From Gemmatimonadaceae bacterium (GTDB lineage Bacteria; Gemmatimonadota; Gemmatimonadetes; Gemmatimonadales; Gemmatimonadaceae), in contig DATNEW010000008.1 in the NCBI GenBank assembly GCA_035606695.1, positions 1 through 64,000 of the forward strand: DNA of 64,000 nt, written 5' to 3'. Below, piece by piece: positions 3,411-55,572 of this stretch. The translations under genes and the position numbers were made by a program. Below the pieces are notes generated by a model. That model was given only the letters and a program-made list of their open reading frames with translations. It made no database searches and was not told the DNA's origin. How positions within the stretch are numbered: position 1 is the first letter of the stretch; each line of letters starts with the position of its first letter.

Positions 3411-3477
3411 TCGCACTGTCAAGTCTCTGGTAAGAATAAGGTTAATCCTAGCACGACGATGGACAACGGCGGAGGCT

Positions 3478-14476: not shown

Positions 14477-14585
14477 GTCGCAAAGGGCAAGAGCAACTGC
14501 CAGTGCGCACGCGCACCAACGCGGTCAGGTCGCGGGCTCACGCGGACGACACCAGAACACCACAAAGATCTTAAATAAAACAAAA

Positions 14586-14636
14586 CCAAAGCCCCTGCGG
14601 ACGGAATTCCGCCTCCGTCTCGGGTCTCTGGTTTTT
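14586..14636 (+). terminator. Likely rho-independent terminator after the lpt-mla operon
   Basis: A stem GACGGA (14600-14605) pairs with TCCGTC (14614-14619). An outer, imperfect extension pairs CCAAAG-CCC with GGGTCTCTGG, and a run of five T follows at 14632-14636. It lies between mlaD and the convergent permease gene, the expected site for a terminator. Confidence 0.6.
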
Positions 14637-14664
14637 GTCCGCGCGAGCCCGCGAAGTGTCGGCG

Positions 14665-16101
14665 TTAGTCCGCGTGCGCACCCGCAGTTCCGCTTTCCAC
14701 AGCCACGCGAGCGCCAACTCCAGGCCCGCGCCGCCCGACGGTCAGGTAGTACACCGGAATCCCGGCGAGAATGATCCCGAACACGGCCAACGTCGGTCCG
14801 CGGCTGCTGTCATCGATCAACGCGTTCCCGAGCAGATAGAACGTCGCCAGCACGAAGAGAATCGGCGTGAACGGATAGAGCGGCGTACGAAACGTCGGCT
14901 TGTAATTCGGATCCTTTCGCACCCGAAAGACGAAGATCGACGCGACGCCGAGCGCGTAGAACGGTAGAATCGCCGTGACGAACGTATCCGCGAGCTGCTC
15001 GAACGTCCGCAGCAGCACGAAGATGATTCCCAGCACCGCCGTCAGCGCGATCGCCACGTACGGCGTTTGATATCGCTTGTGCACGCCGGCGATCTGCTTG
15101 AACAACAATCCATCGGCCGCCATCGCGAAAAACACGCGCGGGTTCGTGAGGATCGAACCGTTGAGCGTGCCGAGCGTCGAGAGCATCACCGTGATCGCGA
15201 CGAAGGTCACGCCGCCCGGCCCGACGAGTCGCAGCGCAACGTCGGCCGCGACGAGCTTCGAGTGCCGCACTTCGTCCACCGACATCACGCCGAGATAGGC
15301 GACATTCGCCAGGAGGTAGATGACGATCACCGCGAGCGTTCCCCAGATGAGCGCGCGCGGCAGATTGCGGCCGGGATCTTTCACTTCGCCGGAGATGAAC
15401 GCGAGATCCGCCCACCCGTCGTACGCCCACAACACTGAGACCAGCGCAAGCCCGAATGGCGCGATGCCGAAACTTCCCGGCGGCGCGGCCGGCGTGAAAT
15501 GTCCGCCCGTCTTCGGAATGCCGATCACGATCGCCGCGATCACGATGAACATCAGGCCGACGTATTTCGCGACCGCGGTCAGATTCTGGATGAGCGACCC
15601 CCAGCGAACGCCGACGTAATTGAGCGCCGCGATGACGGCGATCGCTCCCGCCGCGACATAGTGCACGTAATTGGAATACGGCGCCGTCGACGGATCGAAG
15701 CCGAGCACGCGCAGGAAATACTCGGCGAACGTCGTGGCGATCGCGCCGACCGCGGCCGCGCGAATGATCGCGAGCTCGGCCCATCCGAACAGAAACGCCG
15801 GCAGGCGCCCGAAGCCGTTGCGAATGAAGACGAAGATGCCGCCCGTATCCGGAAACGCGCCGGCGACTTCGGCGAGCGTGAGTGCACCGCACAGCGCGGT
15901 GACGCCGCCCGCGACCCAGACGCCAAACAACGGCAGCGGGCCCGGCAGACGGTTGGTGACACTGGCCGGCGTTCGGAAGATGCCCGAGCCGATCGTGATG
16001 CCGACCACGACGGCGATGGCGCTCCACAAGCCGAGCTGTCGTGGAAGCTCGTGTGTTTCGGATGAAGCAGACGCGGGTGCGGTCGACGAAGGAGCAGTCA
16101 T
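14665..16101 (-). CDS. APC-family amino acid permease
   Basis: 478 aa from ATG 16101. Twelve membrane helices can be traced. The first carries the family motif GITIGSGIFRTPA, the unwound substrate-binding loop of the APC superfamily. The conserved helix 6 region (LVSVLWAYDGWADLAFISGE) is intact. This arrangement is typical of basic or neutral amino-acid/proton symporters and exchangers of the LAT-like type; the substrate cannot be told. It stands alone between the lpt-mla terminator and a divergent copper protein gene. The C-terminus ends in a short charged cytoplasmic tail after the last helix. Confidence 0.9.
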   Translation of the reverse strand: MTAPSSTAPASASSETHELPRQLGLWSAIAVVVGITIGSGIFRTPASVTNRLPGPLPLFGVWVAGGVTALCGALTLAEVAGAFPDTGGIFVFIRNGFGRLPAFLFGWAELAIIRAAAVGAIATTFAEYFLRVLGFDPSTAPYSNYVHYVAAGAIAVIAALNYVGVRWGSLIQNLTAVAKYVGLMFIVIAAIVIGIPKTGGHFTPAAPPGSFGIAPFGLALVSVLWAYDGWADLAFISGEVKDPGRNLPRALIWGTLAVIVIYLLANVAYLGVMSVDEVRHSKLVAADVALRLVGPGGVTFVAITVMLSTLGTLNGSILTNPRVFFAMAADGLLFKQIAGVHKRYQTPYVAIALTAVLGIIFVLLRTFEQLADTFVTAILPFYALGVASIFVFRVRKDPNYKPTFRTPLYPFTPILFVLATFYLLGNALIDDSSRGPTLAVFGIILAGIPVYYLTVGRRGPGVGARVAVESGTAGAHAD

Positions 16102-41470: not shown

Positions 41471-42314
41471 GCGTTGGGGTTCGCGCTGGGGGCTGGGCGC
41501 TGGGCGATGGGCGGTTTTGATCGTGATGATGGCGGGTTTCACGAGCAGTGCCCATCGCCCATCGCCCACCGCCCAGCGCGAAGCGCTCCGCGTCTGCTCC
41601 GACCCCAACAACCTCCCCTTCTCCGACAGCCTGCAGCACGGCTTCGAGAATCGGATCGCGTCGATGCTCGCGAGCGACATGCACGCGCGCCTCGAGTACA
41701 CGTGGTGGCCGCAGCGACGCGGGTTCGTTCGGAACACGCTCAAGGCGGGTGATTGCGATGTCGTGATCGGTGTGCCGTCGGGGTACGACATGGTCGCCGC
41801 AACGGCTCCGTACTATCAGTCGACGTACGTGTTCGTGACGCGCGCCGACGCCGGACTGAGCCCGAAATCGTTCGACGACCGTTCGCTGCGTCACGCGCGC
41901 ATCGGCATCCACATGATGGGCGACGATTATGCGAACTCGCCCGCGGCCGTGGCGCTCATGCACCGCGGACTCGGCGCGAACATCCACGGCTACATGATCT
42001 ACGGCAACTACAACGAGCCCAGTCCGCCGAGCCGGCTGCTCGATGCCGTGGTGAGGAAAGACGTCGACGTGGCGATCGCGTGGGGACCGCTCGCCGGCTA
42101 TTACGCGCGGCACAGCGCGGTGCCGCTGGTCGTCACGCCGGTGTCTCCGCGAATCGACACGCCGTTCCTGCCGTTCGTGTACAGCATCTCGATGGGCGTG
42201 CGGCGCGGCGACACCACGCGGAAGGCCTTTCTCGATTCCGAGATCGTGCGACGCCATGACGACATCCGGCGCGTGCTCGGCGAGTACGGCGTGCCGCTGG
42301 TTGGAGGGTCATGA
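41454..42314 (+). CDS. xoxJ: XoxJ/MoxJ-like periplasmic binding protein
   Basis: 286 aa from ATG 41454, overlapping the xoxF end. After the N-terminus comes a solute-binding-protein fold beginning LRVCSDPNNLPFSD, a standard opening of quinoprotein-associated binding proteins, then GDCDVVIGVPSGYDMVAATAPYYQSTYV (read in parts) and DVAIAWGPLAGYYA. XoxJ is thought to help XoxF mature or load its cofactor. The signal peptide is odd: its core VLIVMMAGF lies between two inverted arrays of a 7-base repeat, which code for RWGLGAGRWA before it and HRPSPTAQR after it. Confidence 0.85.
   Translation: MSFRFKRWGSRWGLGAGRWAVLIVMMAGFTSSAHRPSPTAQREALRVCSDPNNLPFSDSLQHGFENRIASMLASDMHARLEYTWWPQRRGFVRNTLKAGDCDVVIGVPSGYDMVAATAPYYQSTYVFVTRADAGLSPKSFDDRSLRHARIGIHMMGDDYANSPAAVALMHRGLGANIHGYMIYGNYNEPSPPSRLLDAVVRKDVDVAIAWGPLAGYYARHSAVPLVVTPVSPRIDTPFLPFVYSISMGVRRGDTTRKAFLDSEIVRRHDDIRRVLGEYGVPLVGGS
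41491..41578. repeat. Inverted pair of 7-mer (TGGGCGN) arrays inside the xoxJ 5' end
   Basis: 41491-41514 reads as TGGGCG-type 7-mers (GCTGGGCGCTGGGCGATGGG); 41550-41578 holds the complementary form (CCCATCGCCCATCGCCCACC). The two can pair as a long hairpin. The same unit recurs at 44686-44712 and 63532-63559. Confidence 0.8.
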
Positions 42315-53263: not shown

Positions 53264-54226
53264 TTGACCTGGATCACCGTGATCACGGCGCTGGGCGGCT
53301 GCGGCGGAACGACGCCAGCCACCATGACCGCCGCGCCTCGTGTCGCCGTGTCGTGGGGATTCACCGCGCCGTGGGATGCGAGGAGCGACAGCAGCGTCGC
53401 GGCGCACGGCAAGTCGCTCGACGTGGTCGTGAGTGGCTGGATACAGCTCGATAGCCTAACCGGTCAGCCCGCTCAACTCTACCGGGACAATACGCCGCGC
53501 GCGGCCACTGCGGGACGGTTTGCGTTGGTCACCAGTTATGGGGGGACCAGGTTTCATCCGGAGATGATTCGCCGCCTGGCGGCCGATCCTGGCGCGTTGG
53601 CGTTTACGGCGTCGCGCACGGCCAGCCTGCTCTCGAGTGGGGGCTACGAGGGTGTCGTGCTCGACCTCGAGGATCAGTCGCGCGACGACGTTCCTCGTAC
53701 GATTCGCGTGGTCCGCGCGATCGTCGACAGCGTGCATCGACGCGGCGTGCGCGTCGTCGCGCTCGCGATTCCGGCCGCCGACACCGCCGCGTATCCGACG
53801 GCGTCGCTCGCGGCAGTGGCCGATTTGCTCGTCGTCATGCTCTACGACGAGCATTGGTCGACGTCGGCGCCGGGACCGATCGCCACACCCCTTTGGGTTC
53901 GCCGCACGCTCGGCGCGCGCATCGCGGCCGCGGGGGCGTCACAAATCGTTGCGGCGCTGCCGCTCTACGGGTATCTGTGGCGGCCGAATCAGCCGGGCCA
54001 GCCGATCAGCTTCGAGGATGCGCGCCACGCCGCGGCGCAAGCGAACGTCGAGCTGGTGCACGATCCGTCATCGGGCTCGATGCACGCGGTGAAACCGAAC
54101 GATTGGGAACTGTGGGTGACGGATGCTGAGCTCCTGCGAACGCTGATCGGCGAAGTTACGACGCTTGGCGCGACGCGCGTGGCCTATTGGCGGCTCGGGC
54201 TCGAGGATCCGGGGATTTGGAGGTGA
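53264..54226 (+). CDS. GH18-like (chitinase fold) lipoprotein, active site partly changed
   Basis: 320 aa, TTG start at 53264. Short signal with lipobox ALGGC. The barrel resembles GH18/YaaH-type proteins: RVAVSWGFTAPWD, the active strand GYEGVVLDLEDQSRDD, LVVMLYDEHW and IVAALPLYGYLWRP. The canonical D-G-x-D-x-D-x-E reads E-G-V-V-L-D-L-E, so the last Asp and the catalytic Glu are kept while the earlier acids are lost. Binding or hydrolysis of N-acetyl-glucosamine-containing chains (peptidoglycan, spore-like cortex) is possible; function unsettled. The 13-mer arrays follow its stop. Confidence 0.7.
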   Translation: MTWITVITALGGCGGTTPATMTAAPRVAVSWGFTAPWDARSDSSVAAHGKSLDVVVSGWIQLDSLTGQPAQLYRDNTPRAATAGRFALVTSYGGTRFHPEMIRRLAADPGALAFTASRTASLLSSGGYEGVVLDLEDQSRDDVPRTIRVVRAIVDSVHRRGVRVVALAIPAADTAAYPTASLAAVADLLVVMLYDEHWSTSAPGPIATPLWVRRTLGARIAAAGASQIVAALPLYGYLWRPNQPGQPISFEDARHAAAQANVELVHDPSSGSMHAVKPNDWELWVTDAELLRTLIGEVTTLGATRVAYWRLGLEDPGIWR

Positions 54227-54243
54227 GGTCAAGAGCTAGAACG

Positions 54244-54380
54244 GCGATTGGAGAAAGCGAGTGGAAAGATCGAATGGAACAGGCGATTGGAAAATGCGAA
54301 TGGAAAAGGCGTCGCTCCTTCCATTCGCCGTTTCCATTCGCTCTCTCCAGTCGACTGTTCCATTCGCAGTCTCCAGTCGA
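54244..54380. repeat. Two inverted arrays of 13-base repeats
   Basis: Left arm 54244-54308: five units of 13 (GCGATTGGAGAAA, GCGAGTGGAAAGA, TCGAATGGAACAG, GCGATTGGAAAAT, GCGAATGGAAAAG). Right arm 54316-54380: five units in the opposite sense (TCCTTCCATTCGC, CGTTTCCATTCGC, TCTCTCCAGTCGA, CTGTTCCATTCGC, AGTCTCCAGTCGA). A 7-base spacer separates them. The whole can fold into one hairpin with about 65-base arms. It fills the gap between two convergent genes. Confidence 0.9.
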
Positions 54381-54390
54381 TCTTCTGCCG

Positions 54391-55572
54391 TTAAACGATC
54401 ATCAACTCTTTCTGATACTCCCGGGGCGTCACTACCGCCTCACCAGGCGTGATGTACACGTTGACTTCGGTCCGCATGCCGATCTTGCCCGGGATGTAAA
54501 TCCCCGGCTCGATCGAGAACGCCACCCCCGGCACGAGCAACCGCTCCTCACGCGTCTCGAGATTGTCGAGATGCGGCCCGGATCCGTGCAGCTCGCGCGA
54601 GTCGATCGAATGCCCGGTACGATGCGTGAAGTTCTCGCCGAATCCGCGCGAATCGATCACCTGGCGCGCCGCGTCGTCCACGTCGGCGCCCTTGATCGCG
54701 ACGCCGGCCTTGGCCTTCTGCAGCACGAGCGCGATCGCCGCGTCGCGGGCGTCTTTCACGGCATTCCAGATCTCTAATGCGTCCGCGGACGGCTTTCCGA
54801 GCGACGCCATCCAGGTCTGGTCGGCCCACACGCCGCCATCCGCCTCGCGCGCCCAGAGGTCGATCAGCAGAATCTCGCCGGGCTTGATCACTTTCGGCGC
54901 GTCGGCCGACGGCTCGTAGTGCGGATTCGCCGCGTTCGCGCCGACGGACACATTCGGCCCGTGATCTGTCGTCAACCCATGCTTCTTGAAGTTGTCGAGG
55001 ATCCAGCCCATCAACTCGTGCTCGGCCAACGGTTCCTTCCCCCGCGCGCGCTCGCCGGCGAGCTCCATCGCGTCCTTTGCCACCGACGCGATGATCTCCG
55101 CCGATCGCAGGTGCGACGCGATGTTCTCGGCGTTCCATGTCGCGTAGAAGCGCGACACCAGCTCGCCCGACGACACGACCGTCGCTCCGGCCTCGCGCAC
55201 CATCTCGATCACGCCCGCCGGCACGCGATCGAGATACGGCACGGCATCACCCGCCGAGTATTCCATGGCGACGCGCTTGCCTTTGATGTGCTTCGCGAGC
55301 AGCGATTCGAGACTCTTCCACGACGCGTAGATCTCGCGCGTCCAGTCCGTCGGCCAATGTTTCCACTGCGTTTGTTCGATGGCATGCGTGATGGCGACGG
55401 GCTTGCCGCGCGTCGGCACCCAGGCAAATACGCGTCGCGTCGTCATGCCGTCGAGCCGCATGAGTCCACTGGCGATCGGATTCAGACCGCGAAAATCGTA
55501 CAGCAGCCAACCGTCGACGCCGGCGGCGGCGAGTGCGCGCTGGACGTCGGCGAGCGATTCAGGAGAGAGCAT
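54391..55572 (-). CDS. M24 family metallopeptidase (Xaa-Pro aminopeptidase-like)
   Basis: 393 aa. N-terminal creatinase-like domain (1-145, opening with VDGWLLYDFRGLNPIASGL), then the pita-bread domain. Metal ligands: Asp in LLIDLWARE, Asp in GGVWADQTW, His in HRTGHSID, Glu in FSIEPGIYIPG and Glu in GMRTEVNVYI. Removal of residues before proline from peptides is the family role; prolidase is the alternative. No signal peptide, so cytoplasmic. The gene's stop is 10 bases from the inverted 13-mer arrays and its start is about 20 bases from a hairpin repeat. Confidence 0.9.
   Translation of the reverse strand: MLSPESLADVQRALAAAGVDGWLLYDFRGLNPIASGLMRLDGMTTRRVFAWVPTRGKPVAITHAIEQTQWKHWPTDWTREIYASWKSLESLLAKHIKGKRVAMEYSAGDAVPYLDRVPAGVIEMVREAGATVVSSGELVSRFYATWNAENIASHLRSAEIIASVAKDAMELAGERARGKEPLAEHELMGWILDNFKKHGLTTDHGPNVSVGANAANPHYEPSADAPKVIKPGEILLIDLWAREADGGVWADQTWMASLGKPSADALEIWNAVKDARDAAIALVLQKAKAGVAIKGADVDDAARQVIDSRGFGENFTHRTGHSIDSRELHGSGPHLDNLETREERLLVPGVAFSIEPGIYIPGKIGMRTEVNVYITPGEAVVTPREYQKELMIV

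Follow-up and report, generated by a model that had tools for sequence, protein, structure and literature searches.

Structure of the array

The 64,000-nt stretch of Gemmatimonadaceae DNA analysed here (the window) carries two arrays of a 13-bp repeat that face each other in an intergenic gap between two protein genes, and the locus raises the question of what kind of element this is and how it came to lie there. The left arm (54244..54308, + strand) is composed of five purine-rich units, GCGANTGGAAANN, which start at 54244, 54257, 54270, 54283 and 54296. The right arm (54316..54380, − strand) is composed of five inverted units, pyrimidine-rich on the + strand, with starts at 54316, 54329, 54342, 54355 and 54368. 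Between the arms lies a 7-base spacer without strand, GCGTCGC (54309..54315), whose GCG...CGC turn is also central at other loci of the 13-bp family. The period of both arms is exactly 13, with substitutions only. The unit coordinates thus bear out the layout given in the first-pass annotation, i.e., five units per arm inverted around a 7-base spacer. No ORF was found between the arms. A search with a two-unit pattern (up to three mismatches) gave eight matches in the window, all of them at 54244–54380, while shuffled sequences are expected to give 0.13.

The RNA of the array is predicted to fold into a single long interrupted hairpin from either strand, as had been proposed, with −78.5 kcal/mol (z −8.9) for the + strand and −72.6 kcal/mol (z −8.4) for the − strand. 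An Rfam scan of the window returned no rRNA and no known RNA family at gathering score, and no terminator with a T tract (a short GC-rich stem followed by a T run) was recognised at 53900–54700. The neighbouring genes provide context only. The upstream one (53264..54226, + strand) is GH18-like, its Glyco_hydro_18 score of 27.4 bits narrowly missing the Pfam cut-off of 29.6; the convergent one (54391..55572, − strand) codes for an M24 metallopeptidase and has orthologues in five congeners.

Dispersal of the 13-bp unit in the source genome

With the array as a blastn query, 23 matching places were found in the 5.9 Mb source genome, which belongs to a soil bacterium, and a three-unit sequence model identified 16 loci, on contigs C1, C8 (the window), C9, C13, C16, C19 (two), C23, C27, C28, C31, C34, C36, C40, C44 and C49. 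Since 15 loci exist besides the window, the array is not unique noise. Outside this genome, the three-unit model had no match in 117 other Gemmatimonadaceae genomes, the plain two-unit pattern had none in 394 other genomes of the phylum, and the unit was absent from viruses (IMG/VR, by pattern) and from plasmids (by blastn). The pattern scan of genome contigs gave two outside matches. The end of a Silvanigrella MAG contig (L040:690-785), which is AT-rich, carries at least six tandem copies of GCGAACGGAAACA, near-identical to the 13-bp unit, which could be a case of misbinning or transfer. In a Gemmatimonadetes MAG (L041:1432-1610), about five TTTCCGTTCGCAG units come immediately after an unrelated hairpin with 55-nt arms.

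Conservation inside the unit is uneven. C2 is present in 111/111, G3 and G8 each in 109/111, and A4 in 107/111 cases; the consensus at position 5 reaches just 59%, and positions 12–13 are almost free. The unit accordingly has a near-invariant CGA..GGA core, with free positions at fixed spacing, and its consensus contains GG at most, with no run of three G. The GGAAA arm leads in every two-armed copy read. The 12 copies examined for gene context lie near the genome background of gaps: seven are between codirectional genes, aguB-aguA and two RND genes among them, four between convergent and one between divergent genes, and specificity for convergent genes was therefore rejected.

The two arms had also been suggested to share unit variants through copying between them, and this proved unsupported. 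Units from the two arms of one locus are identical at 9.55 of 13 positions, those from different loci at 9.58 and those within one arm at 9.98; mirror-position pairs matched no better than shuffled ones (p 0.20; 0.29 if G-U pairs count). The loci share no conserved order of units (p 0.86 when counted from the centre and 0.34 when counted from the ends), and so there is no sign that whole elements were copied. In sum, the units show no trace of copying between the arms or of a recent copying event involving the whole element. The copies on C49 and C19 contain alternating or repeated units that look like local duplication.

Orthologous sites in congeneric genomes

At the site of the window array, the genes are separated by 31 bp in G001 and by about 17 bp in G004. 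In G002 the same site is occupied by an 89-bp hairpin, TGTCATCCTGAGCG, present in three to four copies, and in G005 by another repeat, of 300 bp; both are unrelated to the 13-bp unit. A hairpin repeat related to that of G002, TGTCATCCCGAGCG, has copies at 3477 and 42786 in the window. The aguB-aguA gap measures 30 bp in G002 and 16 bp in G004, and in G003 it is filled with a fold-back array of a different unit with an 8-bp period. Between rplT and pheS, a canonical terminator common to all congeners is intact in the source genome. The 13-bp array is placed after it and is thus not the terminator of that locus; at this point G002 runs from the T run into GCCCAC with no insert. As the orthologous sites are empty or otherwise filled, the 13-bp arrays are most simply read as gains in the source lineage. 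Inspection by eye of the flanks at the orthologous sites revealed no target-site duplication, and the ends are not sharp.

Fold-back arrays with other units

Sampled DNA was also scanned for palindromes in an unbiased way, and this revealed fold-back arrays built of other units, of 7, 8, 10, 11, 14 and 15 bp, which are common in Gemmatimonadaceae. Their density is high in a Gemmatirosa-like genome, where 600 kb of sample contained about 58 periodic hairpins, and they are also present in the source genome and three congeners; none were found in the 120-kb sample of G004, in 200 kb of G026 or in shuffled sequence. Of the 38 fold-back clusters sampled from the Gemmatirosa-like genome, 36 have the G-rich (purine-rich) arm first. 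In the window itself, a second fold-back array (41471–41591) has a 7-bp unit, GGGCGCT/GGGCGAT, with similar arrays at C31:131398 and C1:167537. A long non-periodic inverted repeat (14486–14698; arms of 62 nt, loop of 89) also lies between convergent genes.

Association with PF05635 genes

In the copy on contig C40, six and five units of the 13-bp family, about 530 bp apart, flank a gene for a 150-aa PF05635/TIGR02436 four-helix-bundle protein (71.3 and 69.8 bits, respectively). All seven PF05635 genes in the Gemmatimonadaceae DNA examined, one of them decayed, lie between inverted short-tandem arms. Apart from the C40 gene, the Gemmatirosa-like chromosome has three, with arms built of 7-bp GAGCGTG, of 8-bp GCTGCGTG and of a unit of roughly 14 bp. 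G005 has one, G002 has the decayed copy (GTTTTCC-type arms), and another is carried by a Gemmatirosa plasmid (arms of the GGGCAGGA type). As it was the arms that led to the C40 gene, only the other six are independent test cases. Units that enclose genes also form gene-free arrays in the Gemmatirosa-like genome, as does the unit of the Gemmatirosa plasmid copy, and G002 has gene-free hairpins of a GTTTTCC-similar unit away from its decayed gene.

For a comparison with other genes, inverted-flank scores were used. The seven PF05635 genes scored 35–62, whereas the median for 825 short control genes was 16 and 24 of them reached 35 (Fisher, 5 × 10−11, an approximate value because the control ORFs come from a heuristic caller). 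The test loses strength when confined to the repeat-dense Gemmatirosa (4/4 against 23/178; approximate p 4 × 10−4). The highest score among the controls, 71, belongs to a gene for replication initiator protein A (PF10134, 63.4 bits) with arms of a 14-bp type (L194:8965-9801, equal to about 528965-529801 on C2 of G020). Among PF05635 genes on plasmids from four phyla, 14 of 23 exceeded the 95th percentile of cross-locus pairs (Mann–Whitney, 1.3 × 10−7, likewise approximate, as these mostly cyanobacterial loci are phylogenetically clustered). Their arm units include GGGAACA, GGGTGTA, GAGGACG, GGTTCAA and GGAGCAG; the remaining nine genes have no significant inverted arms, and several of them resemble established members of operons.

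A search of phages found no PF05635 gene, and the C40 protein had no confirmed relative among viral contigs. The only solved relative found was XCC0516 (PDB 2gsc; E-value, 8 × 10−6), whose locus tag points to Xanthomonas campestris; its presumed source is thus the genus in which paired heptamer arrays have been described. To our knowledge, PF05635 proteins are small helical bundles with no known nuclease activity, and we are aware of no settled role for PF05635/S23 proteins, of which this one has a solved structure.

Comparison with known repeat systems

REPINs are palindromes scattered through genomes; they are non-autonomous and presumably depend on a single protein family, the RAYTs, which are IS200-like tyrosine transposases. 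The 13-bp family resembles them as a dispersed hairpin family with a putative single serving protein family, but the gene found in association with it belongs to PF05635, and the 13-bp copies are tandem arrays, which REPINs are not. The intervening sequences (IVSs) of 23S rRNA, e.g., that of Coxiella burnetii, consist of an inverted-repeat stem that may carry an S23/IVP ORF and have been termed selfish elements (PMC4990558). The window array has the same kind of stable inverted-repeat stem, with the z-scores given above, and an S23/IVP (PF05635) ORF is present in the C40 copy and missing from the window copy. Unlike the rRNA IVSs, the fold-back copies are intergenic and dispersed outside rRNA, and their stem is built from short tandem units.

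According to the literature, arrays of comparable design exist, so that the statement of the first-pass annotation that no known element has this design was too strong. In Xanthomonas, GGGAATC forms paired inverted arrays, and Rehm et al. 2015 (PMC4692102) give 70–75 such convergent pairs for each genome; arrays of GGGGA(T/C)T in Nostoc were described along with them. These heptamer arrays are found mostly between codirectional genes, with few between divergent ones, and were discussed as G-quadruplexes, with no ORF linked to them (PMC4692102). The 13-bp arrays are likewise tandem, intergenic and dispersed and form inverted pairs, but their unit has 13 bp and GG only, as opposed to 7 bp and a tract of at least three G. 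In plasmids, blastn returned no GGGAATC arrays of the Xanthomonas type, a result that its low-complexity filter deprives of weight. In the Nostoc trnL intron, the P6b stem consists of complementary 7-nt tandem repeats that vary in number (PMC4476775). It shares with the window array a fold-back stem of complementary tandem repeats, yet it lies inside a group I intron, contains no ORF and belongs to no dispersed family. Fold-back heptamer arrays of Xanthomonas are thus already known, whereas a search of open-access papers found none that links PF05635 genes to short-tandem fold-back arrays.

Origin and possible function of the arrays

On balance we favour the reading that the array belongs to a dispersed family of IVS-like fold-back elements as one of its ORF-less copies, and that a PF05635 protein probably took part in its spread or maintenance. 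Its position had been taken to suit a bidirectional transcript end between convergent genes, and the arrays could in principle be bidirectional terminators or 3′-end hairpins, never mobile and kept for ending or protecting mRNAs. The stability of the window hairpin from both strands agrees with this, as does the leading purine-rich arm, seen in every 13-bp copy with two arms that was read and in 36/38 Gemmatirosa-like clusters, which would give the RNA of both strands a pyrimidine-rich 3′ arm; in G020, moreover, convergent gaps are moderately enriched among those with arrays (16/49 against 69/359 in the background). However, 7 of the 12 copies examined, those at aguB-aguA and the two RND genes included, separate codirectional genes and only 4 convergent ones, the window lacks a terminator-like T tract, and the pheS copy has an intact terminator upstream. 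The unit is also confined to one species, and this explanation does not predict the PF05635 association. We consider it unlikely, and transcript ending between convergent genes would be a side effect at best.

Somewhat less likely still, the arrays might be neutral, with replication slippage and occasional template switching having generated the repeats in situ and the PF05635 genes being incidental cargo. The slightly greater similarity of units within an arm than across arms (9.98 against 9.55), the apparent local duplications on C49 and C19, and the over-representation of heptamers in many genomes (cited in PMC4692102) fit such an origin. It does not account for one 13-bp unit at 16 separate loci, for the strongly uneven conservation inside the unit and the fixed order of the arms, or for PF05635 genes between such arms far in excess of control genes. 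The near-invariant CGA..GGA core with free positions at fixed spacing would also suit tandem binding sites of a chromosomal DNA-binding protein, nucleoid or regulatory. Binding sites, however, need neither the inverted layout nor the hairpin, and the unit is restricted to one species, with congeners filling the same gaps with unrelated units; we regard this explanation as very improbable.

The IVS-like fold-back element would consist of two inverted arms of short tandem units, 13 bp in the source species and 7–15 bp with other sequences elsewhere, with the purine/G-rich arm first, and some copies would enclose a PF05635 gene (23S rRNA IVP/S23/TIGR02436). The protein would bind the repeat hairpin, as RNA or DNA, and, by analogy with RAYTs and REP/REPINs, would help both ORF-bearing and ORF-less copies to spread or persist; that the element is mobilised is likewise our inference. 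The inserted hairpin would be tolerated in intergenic gaps. In a secondary role, comparable to that of 23S rRNA intervening sequences, it may serve as an RNA processing or 3′-end structure; such a local RNA effect is plausible because of the hairpin and the polarity of the arms.

The C40 gene hints that hairpin repeats widespread in bacteria belong to a poorly understood kind of element. As a tentative extension, which we hold with more doubt than confidence, many intergenic arrays of bacteria with short tandem units of 7–15 bp in inverted pairs, among them those of Gemmatimonadota, the cyanobacterial heptamers and the Xanthomonas GGGAATC arrays, may form one mobile fold-back class, with PF05635 as cognate proteins, a paralogue for each unit, and 23S rRNA IVSs as a special case located in rRNA. 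If the arrays and PF05635 are halves of one element, both acquire a testable function, and the question of where ribosomal intervening sequences come from can be approached. Caution would in that case also be advisable before IVP genes at CRISPR loci are counted as CRISPR components, since several PF05635 genes sit amid cas genes with repeat arms around them; the IVP family has been named in a CRISPR-related figure (PMC10910872). In three cyanobacterial plasmids (L228, L236 and L238), PF05635 genes lie between cas genes (cas6/cas4, cas10/cmr3), and inverted arms of a 7-bp type around them are clear in L228 and L238.
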